In this document: positions 32,835 through 56,082 of the stretch, in pieces
Layout: the number at the start of each line of letters is the position of its first letter
Position numbering within the stretch: position 1 is the stretch's first letter
Source: Celeribacter persicus
Lineage (GTDB): Bacteria > Pseudomonadota > Alphaproteobacteria > Rhodobacterales > Rhodobacteraceae
NCBI RefSeq assembly: GCF_003050785.1
Contig: NZ_QAOH01000015.1
Coordinates: 1 to 64,000, forward strand
Direction of reading: 5' to 3'
DNA length: 64,000 nt
Translations under genes and position numbers: made by a program
Notes under the pieces: model-generated
Told to the model about the DNA's origin: nothing
Databases searched by the model: none
Seen by the model: only the letters and a program-made list of their open reading frames with translations

Positions 32835-33097
32835 TTCGTTGTGTTGAGGACCTCCAGCTTTCGCCAGACACAGGCCGGCGGAAGAGGCGTGTTGGCTCAT
32901 TCTCAGTACAATGTGTCATTTGGTTCAGAGCCATGTCTGGTTCCGCGCTTCGTGAACAGGCGGTTAGGGGCGGACTTGTTTATCTCGTGTGAGCCCAGCC
33001 CTGTGTCGTCCTGTCGGCAGAGGGCCGTTTGGTCGACCCGATGCCTGGGAGGGAGTGCGGTCCGCATGAGAATTCAAAGAAAAAAGAGAGGATTTCC

Positions 33098-33814
33098 TTG
33101 TCCGACAACATTCTCAAAATTCGGGACCTCGATGTCTTCGCCGGCGAGACGCAAGTGTTGCGCGATGTCGATCTGACGATCCACCCCGGTGAAGTGCATA
33201 TTCTTCTCGGGCCGAACGGATCCGGAAAATCGTCGCTTCTGCAAGCGATCATGGGGGTTCCGCCATTTCGTGTGACCAAGGGCGATATCCGGCTCAATGG
33301 CCGGTCGATCTGTGATCTGACGCCGGATCAGCGTGCTGCCTTGGGGTTCGGCATGGCTTACCAGAAGCCGCCGGAAATCGACGGGGTGACGCTGACGGCT
33401 CTGGCGCATGTCATGCGTGCCGATGCGACCTTTGCAACGGAAGCCGCAGCACTCGATATGGCGGATTTTGCGCAACGCGAAGTCAATGTCGGATTTTCGG
33501 GCGGCGAGATCAAACGCTGGGAAGTGCTCAAGCTCTTCTTACAGAATCCGCAGTTCCTGCTTTTCGACGAACCCGAAAGCGGGGTCGATCTTGAACATAT
33601 TGCCGCCGTGGGCGCCGCCATCGAACGGCTTGCGCGGAGCAGGACGGCCAATGGAGCAAAACGCGCCGCACTGGTGATCACCCATACAGGCTTCATCCTC
33701 GATTATGTGAAAGCAGATACGGCACATATGATGGTGGATGGACGCATCATTGCGACCGGTGACCCGAAAGAGATGTTCGAGCAGGTGAAAAGCAACGGTT
33801 ATCATGCCGCCTGA
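33098..33814 (+). CDS. SufC-like Fe-S cluster assembly ATPase (minimal SufCB/Sms type)
   Basis: A 238-residue soluble ABC ATPase. Walker A is LLGPNGSGKSSLLQAIMG, and the signature and Walker B region is VGFSGGEIKRWEVLKLFLQNPQFLLFDEPESGVDLE. An H loop (VITHTGFILDYVKAD) and the SufC-specific sequence GMAYQKPPEIDGV are present. The ESGVDLE wording is that of archaeal/anaerobe SufC rather than the SGLDID of the proteobacterial SUF operon. It is paired with a single SufB-like scaffold and no SufD, SufS, SufE or SufA. The start is TTG at 33098, preceded by AGAGGA. A longer frame from 33029 starts in the leader and is rejected. Acts in the cytoplasm, probably driving cluster assembly on its partner. 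Confidence 0.8.
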   Translation: MSDNILKIRDLDVFAGETQVLRDVDLTIHPGEVHILLGPNGSGKSSLLQAIMGVPPFRVTKGDIRLNGRSICDLTPDQRAALGFGMAYQKPPEIDGVTLTALAHVMRADATFATEAAALDMADFAQREVNVGFSGGEIKRWEVLKLFLQNPQFLLFDEPESGVDLEHIAAVGAAIERLARSRTANGAKRAALVITHTGFILDYVKADTAHMMVDGRIIATGDPKEMFEQVKSNGYHAA

Positions 33815-33859
33815 GCGATCGCCCAAGTCTGTCGCTCAGGTCTTATGAGGAGAACGATC

Positions 33860-34975
33860 ATGAACATTCAAATCACACAATCGCCACTGAGCGATGCCGA
33901 AAAAACCACGTTGAGCAAAGTGGGCTATGTGGCGGAGTCTGAACGTGCCGCAACGGTGGTGATCGCCGATCAGGAGGTACGACATATCTCCATCAATGAT
34001 GATCAGGTGGAAATCCTGCCGATTGCCGAGGCGCTGAAAAAATATGTATGGGTGCAGGAGCTTTATTTCGGTCTGATTGACGTGAACGAAGCTGAAGAAG
34101 TGCAGCATCTGGCACGGTCGGCTGACACTCCCGTCGGTCATTTCATCCGGGTGAAAGCCGGGGCGAAACTTGAGCAGCCAATCCAGTCCTTCTGCCTGCT
34201 GGAAACGCCGCAGGTGCGGCAGGTGCTGCATAATATTACTGTGATCGAGGAAGGGGCGCAGGCCTCCGTGATCTCCGGCAGTTCCGTGGCCGATGGGGTG
34301 CATACGGGTCAGCATACCTGCCTGTGCGAAACCTATTTACGCGAAAGGGCGAGGTGTGAGTCTCTTTCCATCGAACAATGGGCAAAGGACGTGGATGTGA
34401 TGAGCTATGATCGTGCGGATGTGGCGAAATCGGCCCATTGCAGTTCCAACAAGGTGATGGTCTCGCCGGTACGCAATCATTGCAGTCGGACATCCACGAC
34501 CGTGGGCGAGGATGCGACGGCCAAGGATCAGTCCATCGTCTTCGCGCCACAAGGCACCACGCGGATGATGGAGGGAGAAATTCATCTCAGGGGCGAGCGC
34601 GCGCATGCTGAAAGCCTGACCCGGATGGTGACGGCGGGTGGCACGATTGGGAACAATGCGATGCTTGTCGGGGAGGCGGACGATACCGAGGGTTTCCTTG
34701 GTTGCGACGGGTTGAAGCTGACCAGCGATGGTGAGATTCTCTCCGTACCCGCCTTGAGGGCCTTGTCCGAGAAATCTCAGCTTTCTCATGAGGCCTCTGT
34801 TGGCATGGTGAGTGAGGAGAAACTGGCTTATCTGGAATCTCTGGGGTTGACGGAGGACAGCGCCAATGAGCTAATCGTGCAGGGCTTCCTGAACCTGAAG
34901 GAACAGGAAATGCCTGCCCCGGTGCGCGAGACCGTAAAGGATATGATTTCTGCTGCAAAATCCGGCTCGATGTGA
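33860..34975 (+). CDS. SufB/SufD-family Fe-S cluster scaffold (minimal SufCB/Sms type)
   Basis: A 371-residue beta-helix scaffold. Landmarks are HCSSNKVMVSPVRNHCSRTSTTVG, ARAHAESLTRMVT-like wording (RAHAESLTRMVTAGG), GFLGCDGLKLTSDGEILSVPAL and LSHEASVGMVSEEKLAYLESLGL. The cysteine of GCDGL and the glutamate of SHEAS align with the two residues known to be essential in E. coli SufB (Cys405 and Glu434). It is shorter than SufB (about 480-495) and closer to the archaeal-type single SufB/D protein. Start at 33860 with GAGGAGA upstream. The gene follows the ATPase by 45 bases and ends at a strong terminator, so the two genes are a complete cassette. It may serve a special client or stress; the client is not visible. 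Confidence 0.78.
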   Translation: MNIQITQSPLSDAEKTTLSKVGYVAESERAATVVIADQEVRHISINDDQVEILPIAEALKKYVWVQELYFGLIDVNEAEEVQHLARSADTPVGHFIRVKAGAKLEQPIQSFCLLETPQVRQVLHNITVIEEGAQASVISGSSVADGVHTGQHTCLCETYLRERARCESLSIEQWAKDVDVMSYDRADVAKSAHCSSNKVMVSPVRNHCSRTSTTVGEDATAKDQSIVFAPQGTTRMMEGEIHLRGERAHAESLTRMVTAGGTIGNNAMLVGEADDTEGFLGCDGLKLTSDGEILSVPALRALSEKSQLSHEASVGMVSEEKLAYLESLGLTEDSANELIVQGFLNLKEQEMPAPVRETVKDMISAAKSGSM

Positions 34976-35613: not shown

Positions 35614-36663
35614 TCAGGCAAAGACCTGACCGGCAAAAAGTTTGCGAGCGGTGCGTAATGTACCCGCGCCGATCACGGTGCCCGAGCTGTCGCGGTCAAG
35701 AATGATCTCCACCACGCCCGAAGGGTGTTCAATCACGAATGTCGTGTCCTGAGGCTGTTGCGCCAGGCGTTGCGCAGGACTGCCGTCGAGGACACAGGCG
35801 GTTGCCACGGACACAGCTGCAAACACGCCGATGGAGGCATGACACCGATGGGGGATAAAACTGCGCGTGTTGATAACCCCGCCCTGTGTCGGCGCACTGA
35901 CCAATGTCATTTTCGGAACAGATTTCTCGGTGACATTTCCGAGGGTCATCATCTCACCCGCTTTGAGACGAATGGCCTCGATCCGGGATTTGAGATCGGC
36001 GTTGCCATCCAGGTCTTCGCGGCTTTCCTGACCGCTCAGGCCAAAATCCTCGGCAGCCATCACCACGATGGGCATACCGTTGTCGATCAGGGTACAGGCG
36101 ACACCTTCAATCACGTCAACAGTATTGCCAGAGGGCAAAAGCGCGCCGCACATCGACCCGGCGAGCCCGGTGAACAAAAGCGGGATCGGCGCGTGAGTTC
36201 CGGGAACACCGTCGATGCGCGCTTTGCCCTCGTAAGTGACCCGGCCGTTCGGTGTCTGCACCGTCGCCACCGCAATTTCCCCGGTGTTCTCCATGAAAAT
36301 CCGCACGTGGGTCTCGCCGTCCTGCGCCGGAACGATCTCCATCTCGATTGCGGCGGGTCCGACGCCGGCAAGGATATTGCCACAGGCCTGTGCGCCCGAA
36401 ACCAGCGGTTGATCGACAAAGACCTGCAAGAACAGGTAATCGACATCCGCATCTTCACGCGCGGAGGGCGACAGGATCGCGACTTTTGAGGTCAGCGGGT
36501 CCGCGCCGCCGATCCCGTCGATCTGGCGCGGGTCGGGACTTCCCATGATCCGAAACAAGAGCGCATCGCGCGCATCCGTGTCAGAAGGCAGGTCGGCGGC
36601 CTTGAAATAAGCCCCCTTCGAGGTGCCTCCCCGCATCCAGAGACAGGGGATGCCCTCAGACAT
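35614..36663 (-). CDS. galD: PrpF-family isomerase, probable 4-oxalomesaconate tautomerase (GalD-like)
   Basis: A 349-residue protein of the diaminopimelate-epimerase-like PrpF fold. [11 protein letters not shown] near residue 10, [25 protein letters not shown] with the catalytic-type cysteine, [20 protein letters not shown] and the C-terminal [16 protein letters not shown] identify the family. PrpF proteins isomerise 2-methylaconitate. Next to an aldolase, a GalB-like hydratase and an extradiol dioxygenase, the better reading is the keto-enol tautomerisation of 4-oxalomesaconate in gallate-type meta cleavage. It overlaps the aldolase gene by 8 bases. It could be a PrpF in the strict sense, but no methylcitrate genes are present. 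Confidence 0.8.
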
Positions 36664-37327
36664 ATTTCAACCCCTTGGCCTCAAGCCGCGGGCGCATGTC
36701 GTAAATGTCGAGGCCCAGTTCGCCATTGGCGAGGCGGACACGTTTGGCTTCTTCGAGATCGAGACGCTTTTGCGCGGCGGCCAGAACCGTTTCGGCGTCT
36801 TCGCGACGTACCACACAAACACCATCGTCATCGGCGCAGATGATGTCACCGGGGTTGATCGCCTGACCGGCGCAGACGATGGGCACGTTCACATCGCCCA
36901 GCGTTTCTTTCACTGTACCTTGGCATGAGATCGCTTTGGACCAGACCGGAAAACCCATCTGTTCGAGATCGACCGTATCACGCACGCCCGCGTCGATGAT
37001 CAGTCCGCGGCAACCGCGGGCCTGTGCCGAGGTCGCCAGAAGATCGCCGAAATAGCCATTGTCACAGGGCGAGGTCGGCGCAAGCACGAGAATGTCGCCT
37101 TCCTTGAGCTGTTCGATGGCGACATGGATCATCCAGTTGTCGCCCGGAGGCGCGGAAATGGTCACCGCAGAGCCCGCGATCTTGGCACCGCGATAGATCG
37201 GGCGCATGTAGGAGTGCAGGCATCCGATCCGGCCCTGCGCTTCGTGGACAGTGGCAACCCCGGCCTGACCGAGGGCGTCGATTACCTTGGGATTGGCGCG
37301 TTCGATGTTCTGGACGACAACTGGCAT
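36656..37327 (-). CDS. galC: 4-carboxy-4-hydroxy-2-oxoadipate aldolase (GalC/LigK-like)
   Basis: Cleaves 4-carboxy-4-hydroxy-2-oxoadipate into pyruvate and oxaloacetate, the last step of gallate and protocatechuate 4,5-cleavage. The 223-residue protein is an RraA-like fold. Family landmarks include [68 protein letters not shown] with the metal-site aspartate, and [20 protein letters not shown]. The whole pattern, length and context match HMG/CHA aldolases rather than the RNase E inhibitor RraA. It lies between the dioxygenase and tautomerase genes. Confidence 0.86.
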
Positions 37328-37347
37328 GAGTGTTTCCTTTTGCCTTA

Positions 37348-37367
37348 GGGGGCGACAAAGCCGCCCC
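37348..37367 (-). terminator. Stem-loop between dioxygenase and aldolase genes
   Basis: GGGGCG and CGCCCC arms around a short ACAAAGC-type loop form a compact hairpin in the 57-base gap. On the minus strand it is followed by CTAAGGCAAAAGG, the aldolase ribosome binding region, rather than a T run. Partial termination or message processing is more likely than a complete stop. Confidence 0.4.
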
Positions 37368-37384
37368 TCCGTATTTTATCTGGA

Positions 37385-38347
37385 TTACTGCTTGATCGGT
37401 GGTGTGCCGTGGGTGTGGAAGCTCTCGATGGTCTTGAGACCCCAGGCCTGGCCCTTCATCCGGTCAGATTGTGTCCAGCACACCGGTTTCCAGTCGGGGG
37501 CAAGGATCAGACGCGCACCCGCATTGGCAAGTTCCACCCGGTTCCCGGCAGGTTCCCAGACATAGAGGAAGAACGTGCCCTGCACCGCGTGTTTGTGCGG
37601 GCCGGTTTCGATGTGTACGCCGTTTTGCAGGAAAATATCCGCTGCACGCAGGATATCTTCGCGCTGATCGGTGGCATAGGTGACGTGGTGCAGGCGGGCG
37701 TGACCGCCACCGTGCTCTTCGGTGCAGGCGAGATCGTAGGTCTTGTTGTTCACCGTGAACCAGCAGCCGCCGAGACGACCGTTGTCGAGCTGGATATATT
37801 CGGTCACGCGAGACCCGAGACAGGTCTGCATGAAGCGTTTGAACTCGGTCACGTCCTCGGACAAGAGGTTGAGGTGGTCGATCCGACGCGGTGCCGCACC
37901 GGTAAAAGCGGAGGCGGTGTTTTTCAGTGCGGCCTTTTCGGCATCTTCCTGCGGCTCCCACCAGTTGGTGTCGTAGTAAATCTCGAACACATGGCCGAAG
38001 GGATCTTCAAACCGGAAGGCGCGGCCATGGGAGAGATCGCCCTCATTCCAGCCGATCACCTTGTAACCGCTTTCTTCGATTGCCTTGACGCGGCGTTCCA
38101 GCGCCTCCGGAGAGGCGGCGCGATAGCCGATATGGGCCACGCCAGTGGTGTCGGATTTCGTGAGTTTCAGCGTACAGAATTCATAATCGTCCCAGGCGCG
38201 CAGGTAAGCCGAGGTTTCGTCCTGCGCCGACAGTTTTAGCCCATAGATACGGGTGAAGAAATCGAGGCTTTCCTCGAATTTGTCGGTGAGCATTTCCACA
38301 TGGCCCAGATGGGCGATGTCGAAAGAGGGGTTGGTAGGGTTGGACAT
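37385..38347 (-). CDS. VOC-type (type I) extradiol ring-cleavage dioxygenase
   Basis: A 320-residue two-domain vicinal-oxygen-chelate dioxygenase. The C-terminal domain carries a complete Fe(II) site aligned with catechol 2,3-dioxygenase: His158 in RIDHLNL, His221 in RLHHVTYA and Glu272 in GNRVELAN. His253 and Tyr262 sit in the catalytic acid/base and substrate positions (GPHKHA...FLYVW). The N-terminal domain is the structural copy (AHLGHVEML, FEDPFGHVFEIYY). GGAGGAG precedes the ATG at 38347; the longer frame is non-coding. It opens a dihydroxylated ring. Its neighbours suggest a carboxylated, gallate-like substrate, unusual for this family, since known gallate/protocatechuate 4,5-dioxygenases belong to the LigB superfamily. 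Confidence 0.88.
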   Translation of the reverse strand: MSNPTNPSFDIAHLGHVEMLTDKFEESLDFFTRIYGLKLSAQDETSAYLRAWDDYEFCTLKLTKSDTTGVAHIGYRAASPEALERRVKAIEESGYKVIGWNEGDLSHGRAFRFEDPFGHVFEIYYDTNWWEPQEDAEKAALKNTASAFTGAAPRRIDHLNLLSEDVTEFKRFMQTCLGSRVTEYIQLDNGRLGGCWFTVNNKTYDLACTEEHGGGHARLHHVTYATDQREDILRAADIFLQNGVHIETGPHKHAVQGTFFLYVWEPAGNRVELANAGARLILAPDWKPVCWTQSDRMKGQAWGLKTIESFHTHGTPPIKQ

Positions 38348-38438
38348 TGGGTCTCCTCCGAGAGATTTCCGTGCAGCCACGACGGATGATTGGGCTGCCC
38401 GTGCGGTCCTTCCTCCGCACCGGCGTGAGATGCGTTCC

Positions 38439-39167
38439 TTAGAGTTCGTCAACCGTGCGCGGGAAGATGGACTGGAAGCCCTCGGCATAGTGACAATCAC
38501 GCCCGCCGGACATCCCGCCGGAATTGCGTTTGAAATGGTTGGCGCGTTGTTGGGCCACGCGGGTGTAATAGTCCCACAGATGGACCTGACCGTTCATGCA
38601 TTCCATCGCCGCGCGTTTTTTGTCCCAGACCGGGGTGATGTCGAGGAAGGTGTCGGGCTTCCAGCCCATCTGTTCGGTCTGGTGTGGTTCAAAGAGATAA
38701 AGCTGCGGTGCGCCGAGCACCTTTTGACCCGGATTGTGCCCCCAGGCCTGTGCAATCATCCGGCATTCCAGCGCCACCTGCGTCATGTACATATGATCGG
38801 TGTTGTAGGGGTCATACTGGCTGTGGCTCATCATGAAAGCGGGCTGCACCTCGCGGATCAGGTCCACGAGTCTGTATTTGTCCTCTTTTTCCAGAACCAG
38901 CGAGTAATCGCCCAGATCGAAGCATTCAAGGCGCGTCACACCGAGTTTTTCCGCAGCGGCTTCGGCCTCACCCCGGCGAATGGCTTTCACCTCATCAAGG
39001 CTTTTGCCCTCTTTCCAGAGCCGTGCACTTTCGCCGCGCTCGCCAAAAGACAGGCAGGCGACGGTGACATCATAGCCTTTCTCGGCATGAAGCGCGATCG
39101 CACCACCGCACCGCCAGACAAAATCGGCAGCATGAGCGGAAATGACGAGAGCGGTTTTGTTGGTCAT
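38439..39167 (-). CDS. galB: PIG-L/LmbE-family hydrolase, probable 4-oxalomesaconate hydratase (GalB-like)
   Basis: Zinc enzyme of 242 residues. The opening TALVISAHAADFVWRCGGAIALHA replaces the deacetylase AHPDD motif with AH-AADF, with His12 and Asp15 as metal and base positions, the hallmark of the GalB subgroup that hydrates 4-oxalomesaconate. ACLSFGERGES, RRGEAEAAAEKLGV and SHSQYDPYNTDHMYMTQVAL (with further histidines for zinc) follow. The start at 39167 has GGAGG; the frame open to 39239 lies in the divergent promoter. First gene of the catabolic operon, divergent from the LysR gene. An alternative function as an ordinary deacetylase is unlikely given the motif and context. Confidence 0.84.
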   Translation of the reverse strand: MTNKTALVISAHAADFVWRCGGAIALHAEKGYDVTVACLSFGERGESARLWKEGKSLDEVKAIRRGEAEAAAEKLGVTRLECFDLGDYSLVLEKEDKYRLVDLIREVQPAFMMSHSQYDPYNTDHMYMTQVALECRMIAQAWGHNPGQKVLGAPQLYLFEPHQTEQMGWKPDTFLDITPVWDKKRAAMECMNGQVHLWDYYTRVAQQRANHFKRNSGGMSGGRDCHYAEGFQSIFPRTVDEL

Positions 39168-39322: not shown

Positions 39323-40507
39323 ATGGAAATCTCGCGCAATATTAGGCATTTTAGGGTTTTTCTCGCCGTTGCTGAGCTGAACTCACTGACCCTTGCCTCG
39401 GAAATGTGTAACGTGTCGCAACCTGCGGTGAGCCAGGCGCTGCATAAGTTGGAAAAGCAGTCGGGAGGGGATTTGTTCTCGCGCATGCGTCACGGTGTGT
39501 TTCTCAGTTCGCGTGGAGAGGTGCTGGTCCGACGTCTGAAACGTGCCTTCGGTCATCTCGATCCGGTCCTCGACAGTCTCGGTCCAAGGCTGCGTGTGAC
39601 CATTACAAGTGCCCAGCTTCAGGCCCTGATTGCTGTGCGGGAGGCCGAGAATTTTACTCTCGCTGCGCAGAAACTCGGGCTGGCGCAGCCAACGGTGCAT
39701 CGCGCTGTGTCCCAGATCGAAAATGTCGCTGAACGGCCGCTTTTTGAGCGCGCCGCGCACGGGTTAATCCCGACCCCTCCGGCGCGGATGCTGGCGCAAT
39801 CGGCGCGACTGTTCTTTTCCGAACTGGATCAGGCGGAAGCGGAGCTTGCGGAATTCGATGGGCTGGAGGCCGGGCGGATCGCCATCGGTGCGTTGCCGCT
39901 GTCGCGGTCGATCCTCTTGCCCAAGACGCTTGCCGCCTTTCGCAAACTGCGCCCGCGCCTGCCGGTCGAGATCAACGACGGGCCTTATGACGACCTTCTG
40001 GCCGGGCTTCGGCGTGGCGATCTGGACCTGATCGTTGGGGCGTTGCGGGTGCCTGCGCCAATCGGGGATGTGGTGCAGGAGGCTCTGTTCAACGACGAAC
40101 TGGCTTTCATTGCCCGGCCCGATCACCCGCTTGTCGAACAGGAACTCTTTCTGGAAGATCTGACAGACCAACAATGGGTGGTTCCGCGTCCGGGCAGCCC
40201 CTCGCGCGGTCAGTTCGACGCGTATTTTCAGGAGCGAAATCTGTCGCCGCCCGAAAGTCTGATTGAATGCGGCTCCATCCTGTTCATGCGCGAAATGCTT
40301 CATGCCGGGGATTTCATCGGCTGCGTGTCCGGAGCTCAGGCCGAGGCCGAGATCGCCAAGGGCCTGGTCGCGCGGATCAACCTGTCGGGGAATTGGCCCG
40401 GGCGGTCGATCGGATTGACCACACGTCAAGGATGGGAGCCGACGAAATCACAGGCGATTCTCCTTGATTTATTGCGTCAGGCAGGCATTGAAAAACGCAA
40501 AGTATAG
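39323..40507 (+). CDS. LysR-type regulator with two N-terminal HTH domains
   Basis: A 394-residue protein, about 90 longer than a usual LysR. Residues 1-85 form one complete LTTR winged HTH (HFRVFLAVAELNSLTLASEMCNVSQPAVSQALHKLEKQSGGDLFSR). Residues 92-160 form a second one (QLQALIAVREAENFTLAAQKLGLAQPTVHRAVSQIENVAERPLFER). A single effector domain follows (IAIGALPLSRSILLPKTLAAFRKLRP onward). Both HTHs keep the expected hydrophobic positions, so neither looks decayed. It is divergent from the gal-type operon and upstream of the DctPQM TRAP genes, and is the natural candidate to regulate both. The ligand is unknown. Confidence 0.85.
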   Translation: MEISRNIRHFRVFLAVAELNSLTLASEMCNVSQPAVSQALHKLEKQSGGDLFSRMRHGVFLSSRGEVLVRRLKRAFGHLDPVLDSLGPRLRVTITSAQLQALIAVREAENFTLAAQKLGLAQPTVHRAVSQIENVAERPLFERAAHGLIPTPPARMLAQSARLFFSELDQAEAELAEFDGLEAGRIAIGALPLSRSILLPKTLAAFRKLRPRLPVEINDGPYDDLLAGLRRGDLDLIVGALRVPAPIGDVVQEALFNDELAFIARPDHPLVEQELFLEDLTDQQWVVPRPGSPSRGQFDAYFQERNLSPPESLIECGSILFMREMLHAGDFIGCVSGAQAEAEIAKGLVARINLSGNWPGRSIGLTTRQGWEPTKSQAILLDLLRQAGIEKRKV

Positions 40508-40639: not shown

Positions 40640-41608
40640 ATGCAGAAAACCCTCGCGTTGACCGCCGCTCTGACGGTCATGGGCGTAGCCGCTCACGCCG
40701 AAGATATGAAATTCGCCAATTACATGCCGCCGATGCATCCCTATGTTGCCGGTGCGTTCCAACCCTTTGCCGATATGGTGTCGGAGGGAACGCATGGCGA
40801 GGTGACGGTGACGATCTATTCGGGCGGCGAGCTTGGGCCGGGCCCGGTCGAGCAATATTCCCGCGTGGTCGATGGTGTCGCCGAATTTGCAATCTCCTTG
40901 CCGGGCTATACCGCATCGCAATTCCCGCTGACTCTCACCGCCGAGCTTCCGGGCGTGCTGAACGAAGCCACTGGCACCGCCGATCTGTGGGAAAATATCG
41001 ACCTGCTGAAAAGCGAATATCGCCGGGTGCAACTCGTGTCTCTGTGGTCCTCTGCGGGCAACGCGCTTTATATGCGCGATGTCGCCGTCGACAGCCCGGA
41101 CGATCTCGCCGGTCTGAAAATCCGCGTGCCTTCGCGCAACGCGGGTGAGGTGATAGAAGCCTGGGGCGCAACGCCGGTGTCGATGCCGGTTTCGGAAATC
41201 TACAACGCCATGCAGACCGGTGTGATCGACGGTGCCTATATCGACACCACGGCCACCCGCGCCTTCCGTCTGGGCGAAGTGGCGAATTATCTCACGCTCG
41301 GTATGGAGACGACGAATTCGCCGTTCTTCATCCTGATGAACCGCGATGTCTTTGAGGGGCTCTCGGACGAGAACCAGGCCGCAGTTCTGGAAGCGGGCAA
41401 GAAAGCGTCCCTCATGGCGCAGGAAACCCAGCTCAAAGTCGCCGCCGATGGCGTCGAGGCCTTCGCCGCCATGGAGGGCAAAGAGGTGATCCACCTGACC
41501 CCGGAACAAGCTGCGCCATTCAATAACCTGTCGCATCAGGTGACGCTCAAAGTGGTCGAGGAGACCGGCGGCATGGCCTCCGCCCTCGTCGACGCGCTGG
41601 CGAAGTGA
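40640..41608 (+). CDS. dctP: TRAP transporter substrate-binding protein DctP
   Basis: A 322-residue periplasmic receptor with a signal peptide (MQKTLALTAALTVMGVAAHA, cut before ED). The DctP fold is seen in FANYMPPMHPYVAGAFQPFADMV, VTIYSGGELGPGPVEQYSRVVDGVAEFAISLPGY, and DDLAGLKIRVPSRNAGEVIEAWGATPVSMPVSEIYNAMQTGVIDGAYID. The arginine in IRVPSR is the residue that binds a ligand carboxylate in the family. It therefore most likely carries an aromatic or aliphatic acid, consistent with the adjacent ring-cleavage genes. GAGGA precedes the ATG. Confidence 0.88.
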   Translation: MQKTLALTAALTVMGVAAHAEDMKFANYMPPMHPYVAGAFQPFADMVSEGTHGEVTVTIYSGGELGPGPVEQYSRVVDGVAEFAISLPGYTASQFPLTLTAELPGVLNEATGTADLWENIDLLKSEYRRVQLVSLWSSAGNALYMRDVAVDSPDDLAGLKIRVPSRNAGEVIEAWGATPVSMPVSEIYNAMQTGVIDGAYIDTTATRAFRLGEVANYLTLGMETTNSPFFILMNRDVFEGLSDENQAAVLEAGKKASLMAQETQLKVAADGVEAFAAMEGKEVIHLTPEQAAPFNNLSHQVTLKVVEETGGMASALVDALAK

Positions 41609-41614
41609 TCCGTC

Positions 41615-42118
41615 ATGAACGGGTATAACTCTGTTGCCTGGGCGAAGGTGTTCGGCCGGGCGACCTACGTGTTGGCCGCGCTCGGGGGTGTTTGTCTCAT
41701 AGCCCTGGTGGCGATCCTCGCCTTCGGGGTGGTGATGCGTTACGTCCTCGGCCAGCCGATCCTCGGCATCAACGAGATCGTTCAGCTTACGGCAACGGCA
41801 CTTGTTATGGCGTCTCTGCCCTATACAACAGCCAATCGGGTGCATGTCAGTGTCGATGTGTTCGACACCATACTGGGCCGGTTCGGGCGGATGGCGGGGG
41901 ATATCCTGTCCCGGGTGATCTCGGGCTATGTGCTGTTTCTTCTGGCGCAGCGTGCGTTTTACAAGGCACTCGATGCGTTGGAATGGGGCGATGCGACCAA
42001 CATGCTGAACCTGCCGATCTGGCCGTTCTATGGCATTCTCGCCGCAGGTACGGCGCTGTGTGTGGTGGTGTTCGCCATCGACATCGTGCTGATCCTCACG
42101 GGTAAGGACAAAGACTGA
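41615..42118 (+). CDS. dctQ: TRAP transporter small permease DctQ
   Basis: A 167-residue protein with four hydrophobic segments, the usual small TRAP subunit. GVVMRYVLGQPILGINEIVQLTATALVMASLPYTT is the typical DctQ core, and NRVHVSVDVFDTILGRFGR follows. It lies 6 bases after dctP and 1 base before dctM. It forms the membrane complex with DctM. Confidence 0.85.
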   Translation: MNGYNSVAWAKVFGRATYVLAALGGVCLIALVAILAFGVVMRYVLGQPILGINEIVQLTATALVMASLPYTTANRVHVSVDVFDTILGRFGRMAGDILSRVISGYVLFLLAQRAFYKALDALEWGDATNMLNLPIWPFYGILAAGTALCVVVFAIDIVLILTGKDKD

Positions 42119-42119
42119 C

Positions 42120-43424
42120 ATGACTGATACGACCGTTGGACTGATCGGCATCCTGTGCCTTTTCGGCCTGTTGATCCTGCGCACCCCCGTGGCCTTCGCG
42201 ATGCTCGTGGTCGGGTTTTTCGGCTATGGCCTTCTGGAAGGAATGCGCTCGGCCTCCGCGCTTTTGCTGACGGAAAGCTATTCGGCGGTGGCGAATTATT
42301 CGCTGATCGTCGTGCCGATGTTCATCCTTTTGGGGAATATTTCCTCGGTCGCGGGCTATTCGCGCGGGCTTTACGATGCCGCCTTCGCCTGGGTCGGGCG
42401 GTTCAGGGGGGGGCTGGCCTCGGCTTCGGTCATCGGCTGTGCCGCGTTTTCTGCCGTTTCGGGCTCTTCGGTGGCGACTGCCGTGACGCTCGGCAAGGTT
42501 GCCTTGCCGGAGATGAAGCGCCTAGGTTATGCCGACAGCCTTGCGACCGGTTCCATTGCGGCGGGCGGGACACTCGGTTTTCTCATTCCGCCTTCCACGG
42601 GTTTTGTCCTCTATGCCATTCTGACCGAGGAAAGCATCGGGCGGCTGTTCATGGCGGGTATTCTGCCGGGGCTGATGCTGATGGTGCTGTTCATGGCGGT
42701 GGTCTGGCTGGTGTCCACGATGGACCCGACTGCTGGGCCGCGTGGCGAGAAGGTGCCGTTTCGCGAACGCTTCACCCTGTTGATGAAGGCCGCACCGCTG
42801 CTTTTTGTCATCGTCGCCTCCATTGGTGGCATCTACCTTGGGGTATTCTCCCCGGTCGAGGCCTCAGGGATTGGCGCAGGTCTGGTGCTGTTGCTTGCTT
42901 TGGTTCAGCGCAAACTGAGCTGGATGACGTTCAAGGAAGCCGTGTTCGGCACGCTCCAGACTTCCGCCATGCTGTATATGATCGTCATCGGCGCGAATAT
43001 TTTGAACCCGTTCTTCTCCGTGACCCATATCCCCGCGATGCTGGGCGAGGGGCTCGGGGCGATGAACCTCGGGGCCTATGGCACGCTGATCGTGATCCTG
43101 CTGGCCTATGTCGTGCTCGGCATGTTCATGGACGGTTTGTCAATGCTGGTGATCACCATTCCGATCGTCTTTCCCGTGATCCTCTCCTTCGGCTTCGATC
43201 CGATCTGGTTCGGCGTTGTCGCGGTGATCGTGATCGAGATGGGAATGATCACCCCGCCGGTGGGGATCAACGTCTTCGTGGTGCGCGGCGTGGCCGACAA
43301 TGTCAGCCTCGGCACGGTGTTCAAAGGTGTGACACCCTTCCTTCTGGCGATGCTTCTGGGGCTGATCCTGATCATCCTCTTCCCGCAGATCGCCCTGATC
43401 ATCCCGACTACGATGTTCGGGTGA
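42120..43424 (+). CDS. dctM: TRAP transporter large permease DctM
   Basis: A 434-residue transport subunit with about 12 hydrophobic segments. Family signatures are ASVIGCAAFSAVSGSSVATAVTLGKVALPEMKRLGY, AAGGTLGFLIPPSTGFVLYAILTEESIGRLFMAG, and the C-terminal GMITPPVGINVFVVRGVAD. It uses a sodium-ion gradient with DctQ and the receptor DctP. The gene stops 5 bases before the terminal repeat of an IS30-type remnant, so the insertion lies just outside the coding sequence and may have replaced the natural 3' end of the operon. Confidence 0.9.
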   Translation: MTDTTVGLIGILCLFGLLILRTPVAFAMLVVGFFGYGLLEGMRSASALLLTESYSAVANYSLIVVPMFILLGNISSVAGYSRGLYDAAFAWVGRFRGGLASASVIGCAAFSAVSGSSVATAVTLGKVALPEMKRLGYADSLATGSIAAGGTLGFLIPPSTGFVLYAILTEESIGRLFMAGILPGLMLMVLFMAVVWLVSTMDPTAGPRGEKVPFRERFTLLMKAAPLLFVIVASIGGIYLGVFSPVEASGIGAGLVLLLALVQRKLSWMTFKEAVFGTLQTSAMLYMIVIGANILNPFFSVTHIPAMLGEGLGAMNLGAYGTLIVILLAYVVLGMFMDGLSMLVITIPIVFPVILSFGFDPIWFGVVAVIVIEMGMITPPVGINVFVVRGVADNVSLGTVFKGVTPFLLAMLLGLILIILFPQIALIIPTTMFG

Positions 43425-43429
43425 TGTGA

Positions 43430-44172
43430 GCGCTACTTGAACCGCGCCTCCTATCGCCGTGGAGGGTAGGGTGATCGTCCCATCTCCGCTAGCATCCTTT
43501 CTCGGAAGACCTCTGCGGGGGTCTTCCAGCCGAGGCATTTTCGCGGTGTGTTGTTGAGCTGATCGCAGAGCTGTTTTCAGCTCACGATCGGGCATGCGCG
43601 TGATGTCCCGCGTGCGGGGCAGCCATTTCCTGACCCGACGATTGGTGTTCTCGACAGTGCCTTTCTGCCAGGGCGAGGACGGGTCGCAAAACCATGTTCG
43701 CGTGCCGAGCTCTGCCTGGAGATGCGGCCAACTCACGAACTCTGTGCCGCGGTCGAATGTGATCGATTTGCGCGCCATGAGGGGCAGATCTCCGATGGCC
43801 TTCATGATCTTTCCCATCACTGGCTTCGTGCGTTTGTTCGGGTTCTTCAACAGCACCGTGAAGCGGCTGACGCGCTCGACCATCGATGTGATGTTTGTCT
43901 GGCCAAAGCTTTGTTTGAACAAGACCAAATCATTCGGGACCGGCCTCGGACCGATGGCAGTTCGGCCCCTCATTCCCAGTGCCCGAACTGCCGACGGTGA
44001 GCGACGTCGTCCGACCGGAACAGGATGCTGACATCACGGTCGAATTTCGGAGGTAGGCGCTTCCTAGCCCGCCGCGGTTTGCGGGACTTCCGGTGCTCTG
44101 GCAGATACCGCCGGAGTTCCTGCGCCATGCCTTACTTGGTTTCTAACAGGAGTCGCACTTCAAGGTAGCGCA
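43430..44172 (-). mobile_element. Internally deleted IS30-type insertion sequence
   Basis: The left end GCGCTACTTGAACCGCGCCTCCT (from 43430, given here in two parts: GCGCTACTTGAACC and GCGCCTCCT) matches, with a few changes, the right end read inward from 44172 (GCGCTACCTTGAAGTGCG and ACTCCT). These are terminal inverted repeats around a broken IS30-family transposase. The 743-bp length is well below the usual 1.0-1.1 kb, so about 300 bp are missing, mostly from the transposase N-terminus. The element is not expected to move by itself. Confidence 0.75.
43451..44128 (-). pseudogene. IS30-family transposase, broken
   Basis: Starting from 44128 on the minus strand, ELRRYLPEHRKSRKPRRARKRLPPKF...FGHWE is the lead-in to the catalytic core. 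It stops at once at a TGA, where an insertion of about 38 bases sits between two GAATGA copies. The match resumes in another frame at DLVLFKQSFGQTNITSMVERVSRF, with SITFDRGTEFVSW and WQKGTVENTNRRVRKWLPR (the second aspartate and the glutamate of DDE). A one-base slip after RELKT moves the end (LCDQLNNTPRKCLGWKTPAEV) to a third frame, ending at 43451. The N-terminal HTH is absent. Confidence 0.8.
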
Positions 44173-48684: not shown

Positions 48685-51600
48685 TCAGGGTGCAATTTTG
48701 ACTTGAAAGGTTACCGTCCCTTCGGCCCCCGGTCGGAACAGGCCAGCGCAATCCCAACGCAGATCTCCGCTATATCCCACAGGATTCGTCGCAGGTACAG
48801 CGAGTGTGCAACTCATATCTCCCAGCGTGACAGGCGTCGGGATCGGCGCGGCGAGCACTGTATAAGGTGGCGTGCGGTCGTAGAGTTTCACCTCGCTCGC
48901 GGGCAAGGCGGTCGGGTTGGAGACCGTGATCCGATATTCCAGAACATCGCCGGGCGCGCCGCCGTTGCGGACACCTTCGGCCCCGCCCCTGGTCACGTTG
49001 CGCACGGTTTTCGACAGGTCCAGTGCACCGGTGTGGGCCTCTGTAGTCAGACGGTCCACATTGCTGTCGATCTCGCTCACGCCGGTGGCGCCGTAGTTCG
49101 TGGTAGCATCGAGTTTCACCACATAGCTCGCGTTTGGTCCCAAGGAGGAAGAGGCTGAGACGCGCAACACCAGACAGATCGTCGTTGCGGCATCGGTCGC
49201 AATCGGACCGGTGATCGCCACATCCGCCGAGCCATCGCAATTCATGTCCTCAAAGAGCGCGGCGGAATAGCCGCCTGCGGGCGTTTCCGAAATCGTGGCC
49301 AACGAGAAGTCCACAAGCCCCGGCGCGTCTGCGATATATTCATGGCGCAGCGTCGCGATCTGACCGGCGGAAATGGATCGCGCCTGATCCTCGCGCAGCA
49401 CGGCCTGCGTCAGCACACCGATGTCGATTCCAGCATAATCCGTGCCCGCCGCCGGGGTGAAAGTGAGGCTTCCGTCGCGCGGATCGGTATTGACCAGCGA
49501 TGGCAGGACCGCCGGGGTTTCCGAGATCACCAAGTGATCTGCATCTGCCGTCACCGTCACAGTGATCGCGCCGGTGTAACCCGTGGGCAGGGTCAAAGAC
49601 CAAGTGCCGTCTGCGGCCACTTCCGGGCTGTCGATCAGCGTGCCGGTGCTGTCATAGATCGCCACCTGCGCAACCGCCCCACCGCTCTCCGTTCCATTGA
49701 TCAGCCCGTCGAAGGCCGTACCACCGCCCGCGCCGTTGTCGCGGAACACGGTGCCTGACAGAACCGATCCCGTGCCCGAAAGCGCAACAGTTGCGGAGGC
49801 TTCGTCGTCATCCGCAATCCCGTCCGACAGATCGTCGGTCAGATGCCCTACGCCGGGATCGCTATCCGGGTCGTCCTGATCTGCTGCGACGATTTCGGCC
49901 GTGTTGGTGTGCTCCCCCGTCGCATTCATGGTGACACGAATGGTGAGCGTGACGCTCTCGCCATTCGCCATCGCGCCAATATCCCAGATGCCGGTTGCGG
50001 CATCATATGTATCGCCAAGGCTCACGGCATCGTCGGAGACATAGCTGTACCCGTCCGGGATGAGATCACGTACCAGCACACCGGTCGCGCCCCCTGCCCC
50101 GTCATTGGTCACGGTCAGTTTGAGGTCGAGTGCATTGCCTTCGGATGCTGTCGTCACGACCACCGCGCCCGTGTCCAGGATTTCCATCGCGATGGACAGA
50201 TCGGCGGTTTGCGCTCCTTCGGCAAAGCCGAAATCCTGCCCGGAAGTGTCGGCCCCCGTGGTCACGACCACGCCGGTAAGCGGGTTCGTGGTGCTGATAA
50301 CATAGCCCGCCGGAATATCCGCATCCGCGCCGTCCACCTCGATCCGGTAGGTCTGGGTCGCATCGACAGTGGCAAAGCTATAGGTGCCGTCTGCCGCGCT
50401 TTCCGTGGTGGCGACAAGCGTGTCGTCGGAGCTGTCCGCAGGCGTGCCATTGTCGTTATAAAGCGTCACCGTGACAGAGCCGACGCCCGTCTCTCCGGTG
50501 TCAAAGATGCTGTTGGCGTTCGCATCCTGATAGAGCGTGCCGGAGATCGTGCCTTCTTCGAACAGGGTCGAGGCGAATGGTCCCGGCGCACGGCAGGAGG
50601 CGCCGTCATTGCCCTGATAGGTCAGATCGGCGACCGTGCCTTCCACTTCGATAAAGGAGAAGGTCAGGGGGCGATTGCCCTCCACGCCCACTTCCACAGC
50701 AAAGACCTGACGGGATTGGTTGTCGAAGAGGTAGAGATAGCCCGAGCCATCGAACCACACGGAATCGGGGTCCATAGAGAAAATCCCGACCGGCAAAGGC
50801 ACATTGCCCACCAGCGTGATCGTGGTCGCTCCCGGCGTGCCGCCGAGCGGATCAATCGCATAGATGTTGCGGTTCGAGTCGATGAAATAGAGCAGGCCAT
50901 CGCGCGGATTATAGGCAATGTCGCGCCCGTAGAGGCCACTTTGCCCGGTATCGAGGATCCCAAGCGCCACAGGATTCAGCGGATCGGAAATATCCAGAAG
51001 CTGGTAGTGTCCAAAGTTGGTGCCGGACATATAGACCATGACTCCGTTGGGCAGGATATCGGAGGAGGTATCCGGGCTTTCGATCGTCAGACCGGAAATA
51101 TCCGCCACCTCTTGCACCGCGCCAGAGGCGACGATCCGCATCAATGTGCGCGGGCTTTGGCGCACGCCGTAGATATAGCCGTCAAGCTCGTTATAGCCCC
51201 AGCCGGTCACAAGGTAGTTGCCGGTGTAATCGGGCGGCAAAAGCGTCTGGGACAGGGTATAGGTTCCGCCCGACTCGGTGACGCGCAGTTCACTCAGTGC
51301 CGGTAGGTTCTGCGCGGTTTCCGTCGCGACCATGTAGAATGTATCCGAACAGACAAGCGGCCCGTTGGGATCGTAGACCGGGGTCGCGGGATCGGTGAAA
51401 GCGAAATTCTGATCGCCCGTATCGGCGCCCGAGGTGACGACGACGCCCGTGATCGGGTTTGCGGAGGTCAGGTTGAGGTTGGCCGGAACATCCGCATCCG
51501 CGCCGTCTACCTCGATCCGGTAGGTCTGGGTCGCGTCAACAGCTGCAAAGCTATAGGTGCCGTCCGCCACGCTTTCCGTGGTGGCGACAAGCGTGTCGTC

Positions 51601-54600
51601 GGCTGTGTCGGCGGGGGTGCCATTATCATTATAAAGCGTGACCGTGACGGCGCCGAGGCCGCTGTCGCCCGCGTCAAGCACAGAATCGGCGTTCACATCC
51701 TCAAAGACAGTGCCAGAGATGGACCCCTCGGCAAAAACGGTCGAGGCATAGAACGACCCTTTGCGGCAAGACGCGCCATCGTTGCCGATGGGGGCGGACC
51801 CGGTGCCGGCGATCGCTTCGAACTGATAGCTTGCCGGACGTGCGCCCTCTGCGCCGACTTCGACGTAAAACACCTGTTTCGAGTTGTTGTCATAGGCGTA
51901 GAAGAAGCCGTGTTCATCCATCCAGACGGAGTCGAGCTGGGCCGAGCCGAACCCTGCGGGCAGAGGGATGTTTGCCGAGACAAGTGTGGTTGTCGTGGCC
52001 CCCGCCGTGCCGCCTTTCGGGTCCATGGCATAGATCGAATTGCCATTGACCACCATATAAAGCAGGCCGTCGCGCGGGTTGTAAGTCATATCAAGCCCGT
52101 TCGGCGCGGAGGCCCCCGCATCGAGAATCCCGAGGTTCACCGGGTTGAACGGATCGGACAGATCGACGAGCTGATATTTCCCGCTCTGGTTCAGTACGTT
52201 GTAGACCATCACCCCATTGGGCAGAATCTCAAGCGTCGAGCCCACAGTGCCAAGCCCCAACCCAGCCATGTCCACCACCGGACGCAGCGCGCCGGAATAG
52301 GTCACGCGGTACAGCTGGAACGTATCGCGCAAGACGCCGTAGATATAATGGTCCAGCTCGTTCCAGCCCCAGCCAGTCGTCACATAGTTGCCGGTGAAAT
52401 CGGGCGGATAGGTGGTGCGCACGGAGGTGTAGCTTCCGGGGCTTCCGGTGATCTGAAGCTTTTCGAGAACCGGATCGCCATTGAGCGCAAAGACCATGAA
52501 GAACCCGGTGTCACAGACCAGCGGCCCTTCGGGATTGGTGACGGTGACAAGGTAATCCTCCACCTCGCCATCCGCATTGAGTCCGTTGAACGGATCGGAG
52601 GTCACGCCACTTGTGGTGGACCAGCGCAGGCGGGCATAGGTCTCGCCGCTCACCGCATCCGTCGGCACGGCGATGTCGAGGGTGATCTGATTGTTGAACA
52701 CCCCATCGGTGTCGCCCGTGCCACCATCGCGGTAGTCGACGGCGATCTGTTCAGCGGTGTCGAACAGCCCGTTCTGGTCAAAGTCGATCCAGAGCTGCAA
52801 ATTGGTGATCCCTTCGGTCACCGGCAGGCCGAGATCGAGTTGCAGGCTGAGGGTTTCATGGGTCACGACGGTGAGCTGCACCGTGCTGCCGCCCACAAGC
52901 TCGGGGAAGACCGCCACGGCATCTTCGTCGTCGATACCCGACAGGTCATCGCCATCGGCGCCGACCGTGTGCTGGGTTGTGGTCTCCGTGTCGGGAAGCC
53001 CTGCGCCGAGGTAAATCTCCGGCACGACGATATGGCGCGGATCACCATAGGAGGCGGGCGCATCGCCCCGGTCGACCAAGTCGGCGGCGGCGATCACCAG
53101 AGAATAATCCTCCACCTCGCCATCGACGGCAAAAGAGGACGGCAGGAGGGTCAGTTCCGAGCTGTAGCGGAACCGCGCGAAGGTGGTCGCGGTCGTCGCA
53201 TCCGTCGGCACGGTTACGTCGATCTGGATCACGCCATCGCCCGCCACATCGTCAAACCCCGTCCCGTCATCGCGCAGATCGGTGGCAATGCGCTCGCCAA
53301 GTGTCCCTTCAAATAGCCCGTCACCATTAAAGTCGATCCAGGCCTGAAGATAGCCGTCGCCACTCACCGCGACATCCAGGGTTGAAATCATGCCCTGTGT
53401 GAGCACGGGAAAAGTCACCGCGTCTTCGTCGTCTGTGTCCAAAAGGTCATCGGCGGTGGCGGTTGAGTCCGATTGGGCGATCAGCTCCGCGTCGGGGGCA
53501 ATAGTGCCGAGATAGACGGTCTGCGTGGCATTCACCCCATGCGAGGCGATGAGATAGCTCAAAGGCGCATCCCCGAAATCCACCCCGTCGCCGTCGAACA
53601 CGGCCACGGTCACCTTCGCACGGTCACAATCGCCGGGGTTAAGCGCATCGCACATCTCATACTCTATCGTGTAGACACCTGCCGGCACACCTGCGGGCAC
53701 CACCACGCGGCCCTCATCGAGTCCGGAGGTTTCAATGAAGGGCACTGGATCGCCAATATTCTGCGGCGTCGCCTCGACAAGAACGCTCAGATCGGCGGTG
53801 GCGACCGTGGCTGTCAGACCGTTGATTGTGTCGTTGGTGTAGACCTCGCCCGCGCTGCCGCCCAAGAGGTTGTTCACGGGCGTAGAAGTGTAATCGTCAT
53901 CCTCGGCCCGCACCACGGCAGAGGTCTCGTTGATCGGGCACAAGAGAATGTTGGAACCGCGATACCCGGATTCGGCGCTGCTTCCGGTAAAGCCGTGGAT
54001 AAAGCGCGCTGTTGCGAAGGTTGGGAATTCATAGGTGACAAAGTTGTCCCATGGTGTCTCGTTCGGCTCTTCGATCCAGTTCGTCGGATCGCCCACCTTG
54101 GCCGGGTCCATGGCAATCGCCGTGCCGCCAGCCGCAAAGCCGGTGATTTCCACAGTGTTGAAATGGGTGATCGTGGGCATGCCATCGAGAAAGCCCACCA
54201 CATCGGAGGAATCATGGCCGTTATAAAGGCTGTCCACATCGTTTTGTTGCACGATGATGCCATTGATCCCGCTTTGGTCGATGGGATCGCCCAGCGGATT
54301 TGCGGTCGTGGCGGAGCCGTCCTTGACCAGGTTGATCCGGTAGATGATGTGTGAATCGAGCGTCGGCGTCATCGTTGCCTCAATCCCTGTGGTCTGAAGT
54401 ATTGCGCCACTTGAGTTTGAGATCGTCTCGATCCGGGTTACGATGTCGATGAAATTGCCCGCCGCATCGGTGGCCACATCCTCAAAGAGGAACGTATCCC
54501 CGACTTGAAGCGCCGATGCGCTGCCGCTGCCGGCAAGCTGGGTGCGGGGATGATCGAATATCGTTTCCGGGGTACAGGTCAGAGGACTCGGGGAGACTAC

Positions 54601-55749: not shown

Positions 55750-56082
55750 GGGAAGGCACCTCGATCTGACCCTGCTTGAGTGCCCCGGAGCCACGGGACC
55801 GGCAGGGACGCGGCACCCGTGCGCATCGACCCGGGGTCTGCGACACAGGAATCACTTTGTCTGATCGCAGGGGGAAATGCCTTCGCGCCTTGGTCTACCT
55901 GCGCGGGCCATTGGCCCAGGTCCCTATCCTTCTGGGTAGTTGGGCGACCCGGTCGGGGTGCGCGGCCTCTGCGCATGTCCTCTGGTTTGATCCTCTGCGT
56001 GAAAGCGCGCCCAGAACACGGAGAACATACTGGGATCAGGCCGCGAAATGCGGCGCCCTTTATGTCGCGAAGGATTGCCCAC
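55750..56082. other. Divergent promoter region between surface protein and glycosyltransferase genes
   Basis: A frame on the + strand runs open through this stretch into the glycosyltransferase, but it has no family similarity before 56083 and has poor codon structure. I see no RNA gene or clear promoter boxes. It should hold the two divergent promoters. Confidence 0.4.

Follow-up and report, generated by a model that had tools for sequence, protein, structure and literature searches.

Gallic acid is a building block of plant tannins, and gallate is a symmetrical molecule with hydroxyls at C3, C4, and C5. The closest described route for its breakdown is the gal pathway of Pseudomonas putida KT2440, in which GalD, GalB, and GalC act downstream of the ring-opening enzyme GalA to yield pyruvate and oxaloacetate (PMC12314914, PMC9942251; these and all other papers are cited here for excerpts of their text). 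GalA, DesB, and LigAB convert gallate to 4-oxalomesaconate (OMA), the reaction that we presume for the enzyme described here. In the excerpt of a paper on AromaDeg (PMC4250580), gallate dioxygenases are assigned to the LigB superfamily, and gallate is not named among the substrates given for vicinal oxygen chelate (VOC) enzymes; the excerpt of a 2025 paper on syringate gives DesB and GalA as the gallate dioxygenases and reports a survey that counts desB, ligAB, or galA for this step (PMC12314914). Here, we describe a locus from Celeribacter persicus in which the same downstream enzymes are paired with a ring-cleaving dioxygenase of the VOC superfamily. The window, by which we mean the whole 64,000-nt stretch analyzed (assembly GCF_003050785.1, contig NZ_QAOH01000015.1, positions 1–64,000 of the forward strand), contains a minus-strand operon at 35614–39167 comprising galB, a type I (VOC) dioxygenase gene, galC, and galD, with LysR and TRAP transporter genes on the other strand. 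We consider it likely that the operon serves gallate catabolism and that a VOC-fold enzyme in it replaces the LigB-type GalA, DesB, or LigAB. Its four genes all lie where a preliminary description of the sequence had placed them:

38439..39167, minus strand: galB-like gene, operon gene 1, for a PIG-L family 4-oxalomesaconate (4-carboxy-2-hydroxymuconate) hydratase of 242 aa (PDB 5cgz, 313 bits; Pfam PIG-L)
37385..38347, minus strand: gene for a VOC (type I) ring-cleaving dioxygenase of 320 aa (metal ligands H158, H221, and E272; H253 and Y262; Tyr204 in place of the acid-base His)
36656..37327, minus strand: galC-like gene for a 4-carboxy-4-hydroxy-2-oxoadipate aldolase/oxaloacetate decarboxylase of 223 aa (NCBIfam ligK_PcmE; PDB 3noj, 327 bits)
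35614..36663, minus strand: galD-like gene, overlapping galC by 8 bases, for a 4-oxalomesaconate tautomerase of 349 aa (NCBIfam OMA_tautomer; PDB 6p3j, 484 bits)

Judged by family membership, the steps of the gallate pathway after ring opening are securely represented in the window. GalC and GalD both exceed the cut-offs of their equivalog families (383.9 bits vs 304.5 for ligK_PcmE and 514.2 bits vs 440 for OMA_tautomer), and GalB, for which no equivalog was found among its NCBIfam matches, aligns end to end (residues 4–241) with the solved OMA hydratase 5cgz, its best PDB match, with its HxxD motif (HAAD) falling on HSAD of that enzyme. These steps are those of the known gallate route (PMC12314914, PMC9942251), and the earlier proposal of an undescribed route therefore narrows to the ring opener, the only part that looks new.

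The ring opener has paired VOC domains and a 2-His-1-Glu metal site, which place it among the type I extradiol dioxygenases. The Pfam Glyoxalase model matches it in two stretches (82.4 bits), the fold matches as well, and the only Pfam models to match at all are of the glyoxalase type, together with Diox-like_N; the LigB and LigA domains of GalA- or DesB-type gallate dioxygenases are not found in it. Identity to type I extradiol structures is 25% (1f1x) and 32% (3lm4) over the structural alignment. The site had been described as fully XylE-like, and the five residues named for it are indeed present, with His158, His221, Glu272, His253, and Tyr262 aligning with H155, H214, E267, H248, and Y257 of homoprotocatechuate 2,3-dioxygenase (HPCD); the acid-base His of the second shell, however, is not, as the position of HPCD H200 (H199 in XylE) is occupied by Tyr204. 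A further difference from HPCD and AphC is T248, which stands where those enzymes have R243. We view the enzyme as a member of the type I group by working and fold, with one usual residue altered.

This alteration is a property of the clade rather than of one protein. Among fetched copies, excluding tblastn matches shorter than 200 residues or with E > 1e-5, Tyr is found at this position in all 121 sequences at 50% identity or above (117 of them distinct, and one, L086, being the window itself) and His in all 11 below 50%, while the metal site is invariant across the compared sequences. The closest solved sequence, PDB 9wgj (351 bits), was deposited under the name "Catechol 1,2-dioxygenase." It shares the Tyr at position 204 but has neither T248 nor H251, two residues that never vary among the 122 other Tyr-type sequences; when 9wgj was searched against plasmids, no match exceeded 57% identity. 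An AlphaFold model, made from the dioxygenase and 25 close relatives only, has a mean pLDDT of 66.6, with values below 50 at residues 139–154, 159–163, 207–220, 250–257, 276–284, and 299–320, and is too weak for the geometry of Tyr204. In HPCD, His200 together with His248 and Tyr257 favors extradiol over intradiol cleavage, according to the excerpt of a review (PMC6308299), and engineered C, E, N, and Q variants of H200 have been crystallized, as the structure titles record.

In the pathway that we propose, gallate would be taken up by the TRAP transporter and would bind through two neighboring hydroxyls to the metal held by H158, H221, and E272, with O2 inserted between two hydroxylated ring carbons to give 4-carboxy-2-hydroxymuconate, the enol form of OMA. 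GalD would interconvert the OMA tautomers, GalB would add water, and GalC would split the resulting product into pyruvate and oxaloacetate. For gallate, proximal extradiol cleavage (C4–C5, with O3 and O4 on the metal) and intradiol cleavage (C3–C4) lead to the same 4-carboxy-2-hydroxymuconate. Because gallate is symmetrical and both cuts give the same diacid, no LigC-type dehydrogenase is needed, and the absence of one is expected for gallate, unlike for protocatechuate. This lends support to the earlier suggestion that the cleavage product is already at the level of a diacid, as cutting gallate between hydroxylated carbons gives one. With this substrate, an enzyme that no longer told intradiol from proximal extradiol cleavage would pay no cost. 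Tyr204 probably reads or activates the third hydroxyl of gallate; it may form a hydrogen bond to that hydroxyl or serve as the acid-base group.

Gene neighborhoods were compared among relatives from the GTDB genome collection, in which at least 590 stretches encode a VOC relative of some degree (tblastn, E ≤ 1e-3). The 80 closest loci (L006–L085, 82–92% identity) are the best 80 of these by similarity and hence a biased sample, their record titles being mostly those of Rhodobacterales and Rhizobiales along with two halomonads; neighbors were counted by similarity only (BLAST E ≤ 1e-15 to one query each, with the best label kept per open reading frame). A survey of operons with the same four genes had been proposed, and in 66 of the 80 loci the order does recur: the VOC gene is preceded by galB and followed by galC and galD, all on the same strand. 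This arrangement is far beyond chance. Counted anywhere in the locus, relatives of GalB (69 of 80), GalC (71), GalD (71), and the LysR regulator (62) are common, and those of DctP (36), DctQ (33), and DctM (39) are found in fewer. More distantly, GalB, GalC, and GalD matches lie beside the VOC gene of an actinomycete (L152, 54% identity), and GalB and GalC matches beside that of Thermus oshimai (L141, 56% identity). In the loci of the Roseomonas (L140) and Methylobacterium (L155) relatives, at 57–58% identity, a DUF1932 gene is present and gal genes are absent within reach; L140 also has a gene for a class III extradiol dioxygenase. Relatives at 38–44% identity (L142–L147, L153, and L154) are of the His type and likewise have no gal gene in reach.

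The distant relatives bear on whether the VOC protein is simply an ordinary catechol or protocatechuate extradiol enzyme that makes a semialdehyde, with a dehydrogenase and a hydrolase supplied from elsewhere. Its nearest NCBIfam family is indeed catechol 2,3-dioxygenase (TIGR03211), although at 293.8 bits it falls below the cut-off of 320.2, and a DUF1932 NAD-binding dehydrogenase gene, which might serve such a route, is found in 35 of the 80 closest loci (L032:4136-5032 and 34 others of L006–L085). The T. oshimai relative, moreover, passes the family cut-off with 332.2 bits; this protein (L141:5965-6945) is itself of the Tyr type, matches to galB and galC lie some 2 kb downstream of its gene, and in its light the catechol 2,3-dioxygenase label may be wrong for the Tyr-type clade. 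On the other side, neither a dehydrogenase nor a hydrolase for 2-pyrone-4,6-dicarboxylate (PDC) is present among the eight genes scanned in the window cluster (LigC and LigI were not searched genome-wide), the C. persicus genome returned no DUF1932 match in a search run without a positive control, and the Tyr204 clade stands apart from the His enzymes, one of which, from T. thermophilus (L154), is accompanied by the meta-pathway gene dmpG. We regard an ordinary catechol-type role as very improbable.

The replacement of LigAB by VOC was assessed across 198 same-family genomes, each from a different genus, with thresholds of E ≤ 1e-60 for VOC and E ≤ 1e-40 for GalB and with PF07746 taken as LigA. 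VOC is found in 36 of these genomes, GalB in 50, and LigA in 16. VOC and GalB occur together in 29 genomes (Fisher p 4e-15, a value that is only a guide, as the genomes are related) and lie within 10 kb of each other in 24. Among the 50 GalB genomes, 27 have VOC only, 13 LigA only, two both, and eight neither (Fisher p 7e-5). The C. persicus genome has no match to LigA, and its only LigB-family match is a YgiD-type 4,5-DOPA dioxygenase (286.6 bits vs a cut-off of 233); this agrees with the earlier view that a type I enzyme takes the place of LigAB or GalA, and a separate gene of the LigAB or GalA type that might supply the pathway was not found in this genome.

The identity of the substrate is suggested by gene context. 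Tannase relatives are found in seven of the 80 closest loci: four have one within the operon (L008, L016, L022, and L043), two have one directly downstream of galD (L017 and L018), and in L035 it lies at the far end. Membership of the tannase family was confirmed by Pfam PF07519 for L043 (395 bits) and L137 (438 bits) and by PDB tannases for L008 (180 bits), the other calls resting on BLAST similarity to L137 or L008 at 56–62% identity. Four PF07519-type relatives occur in 1.12 Mb of loci vs about 0.05 expected from their density in the 198 genomes, an expectation based on an approximate mean of 3.9 Mb per genome. On pAt of a walnut Agrobacterium (L137, NZ_CP048541.1), galB, VOC, galC, and galD are followed by a gene of the tannase/feruloyl esterase family, with an ABC transporter and a DUF1932 gene running divergently. 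This plasmid is typed as conjugative, and VOC relatives are present on Agrobacterium plasmids from walnut, grape, and rose. LigM-like O-demethylase genes are found in four of the 80 loci and in nine of the 122 loci examined, 112 of which have a VOC gene; all four that were tested (L081, L124, L132, and L135) pass the cut-off for vanillate/3-O-methylgallate O-demethylase (603–635 bits vs 580), and the match in L047 is at 40% identity only. Given these neighbors and a diacid product that calls for no dehydrogenase, gallate is the best candidate substrate. The preliminary description had allowed for a gallate-like or other carboxylated trihydroxy ring; gallate is now favored within that range, and the other rings remain candidates.

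Several observations weigh against a gallate operon with a VOC ring opener. Seven of the 80 closest loci have no galB, galC, or galD in reach, some of them ending at a contig edge, and VOC genes without gal neighbors occur in L125, L128, L139, and L150. VOC and LigA do not exclude each other when the 198 genomes are taken together (p 0.74), exclusion being seen only among GalB genomes, and GalB is missing from seven of the 36 VOC genomes; in the six of these that were inspected (G429 was left out), a LigM-like gene, GalC, or GalD adjoins VOC in L124, L126, L127, and L135, and none does in L125 or L128. The genome-wide association of PF07519 with VOC is not significant (8 of 36 vs 17 of 162, p 0.09), the family spans feruloyl esterases too, and 9 of its 33 rows over the cut-off contain internal stops. 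The C. persicus genome has no PF07519 match, and its sole LigM match covers 58 residues at 40% identity. One genome (G293, locus L129) has a gene for a classical fused gallate dioxygenase (NF009904, 720 bits) close to the VOC gene, the two being separated by TRAP transporter genes, and the VOC enzyme there would be redundant or act on another substrate.

That co-location would be sensible if the substrates differ, as when the VOC enzyme opens a relative of gallate such as 3-O-methylgallate (from syringate) or some other 3,4,5-oxygenated benzoate, with a product that still reaches OMA. The LigM-like genes beside VOC genes, some of them in loci without galB, could be read in the same way. LigM, however, yields gallate from 3-O-methylgallate, by its family name and the excerpt of PMC6888825, so demethylation would precede cleavage; tannase relatives within the operon point to free gallate; and no candidate for a DesC-type methylesterase (an esterase) was found among the eight window proteins scanned. 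Cleavage of a methylated or otherwise altered gallate thus seems to us improbable.

Also counting against a gallate-opening VOC enzyme are eight GalB genomes that have neither LigA nor LigB and no VOC beyond one fragment of 27% identity (G290, G313, G336, G361, G370, G371, G378, and G436; L116–L123), most of them with GalC and/or GalD, which implies that GalBCD can have another feeder. Seven of the eight have intradiol dioxygenase (PF00775) genes, and PcaGH-type enzymes might open gallate in them; the C. persicus genome, too, has intradiol dioxygenase genes that might act on gallate. It is nevertheless hard to see GalBCD as generally fed in this way, with the VOC protein in an unrelated or accessory role, when 66 of 80 loci place the VOC gene between galB and galC, when VOC presence replaces LigA among GalB genomes, and when the metal site of the enzyme is invariant in the sequences compared, and we think this most unlikely. 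On balance, a gallate operon with a VOC ring opener remains our preferred reading. A bolder version of it, which we offer as doubtful, is that the Tyr-type enzymes form a widespread gallate-specific VOC clade that has lost the acid-base His, its cut needing no control over intradiol and extradiol cleavage, and that this is an independent way of opening gallate in marine and plant-associated bacteria, hidden under the labels "catechol 2,3-dioxygenase" and "VOC family protein."

On the plus strand beside the operon lie four genes with candidate roles in regulation and uptake:

39323..40507, plus strand: divergent gene for a LysR-type regulator of 394 aa; two HTH_1 stretches lie toward its N terminus, and its effector part is PcaQ-like, with a score under the PcaQ cut-off
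40640..41608, plus strand: TRAP transporter solute-binding protein DctP, by profile matches
41615..42118, plus strand: TRAP transporter small permease DctQ, by Pfam match
42120..43424, plus strand: TRAP transporter large permease DctM, by profile matches

The divergent LysR protein is likely the regulator of the gal/VOC operon; in P. putida KT2440, too, galB is divergent from an adjacent regulator gene (PMC9942251, PMC12314914). As OMA is the effector of GalR in P. putida (PMC9942251), we would guess that the same logic may hold for the LysR protein of the window. The LysR relative beside the VOC operon of L050, at 398 aa, is similar to it in length. DctP likely has a role in the uptake of the aromatic acid, although none of the 102 distinct PDB sequences that match it (best 104 bits) is informative on its ligand. 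Where P. putida KT2440 has the LigB-type GalA, the MFS transporter GalT, and the porin GalP, the window has a VOC enzyme and a TRAP transporter. Directly after dctM lies an apparent transposase fragment (43430–43973, minus strand; rve, 25.8 bits, below the cut-off of 32.6), IS30-like by eye. Elsewhere, the window encodes an ABC ATPase that by eye resembles SufC, with a SufBD-core protein after it (33029–34975, plus strand), and a 2369-aa protein, perhaps located at the surface, that has GEVED, DUF11, DUF7507, and SdrD_B domains (48685–55794, minus strand).

Within the open-access literature on gallate ring opening, seen in excerpts and leaving subscription journals and preprints outside, we found no VOC-type gallate dioxygenase. 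The pathway and the fold are known, and the pairing of VOC with gal genes and the presence of Tyr instead of His in the active site are, on the evidence of these sources, undescribed; the enzyme seems to be a substitute ring opener whose active site has changed. As it naturally carries Tyr where HPCD has His200, it offers a test of the role of that residue. Surveys of gallate and syringate use that rely on homologs of GalA, DesB, or LigAB, such as that excerpted from PMC12314914, would overlook organisms that use the VOC enzyme, and, if our reading is true, proteins that currently carry the label "VOC family protein" or "catechol 2,3-dioxygenase" would gain a function.

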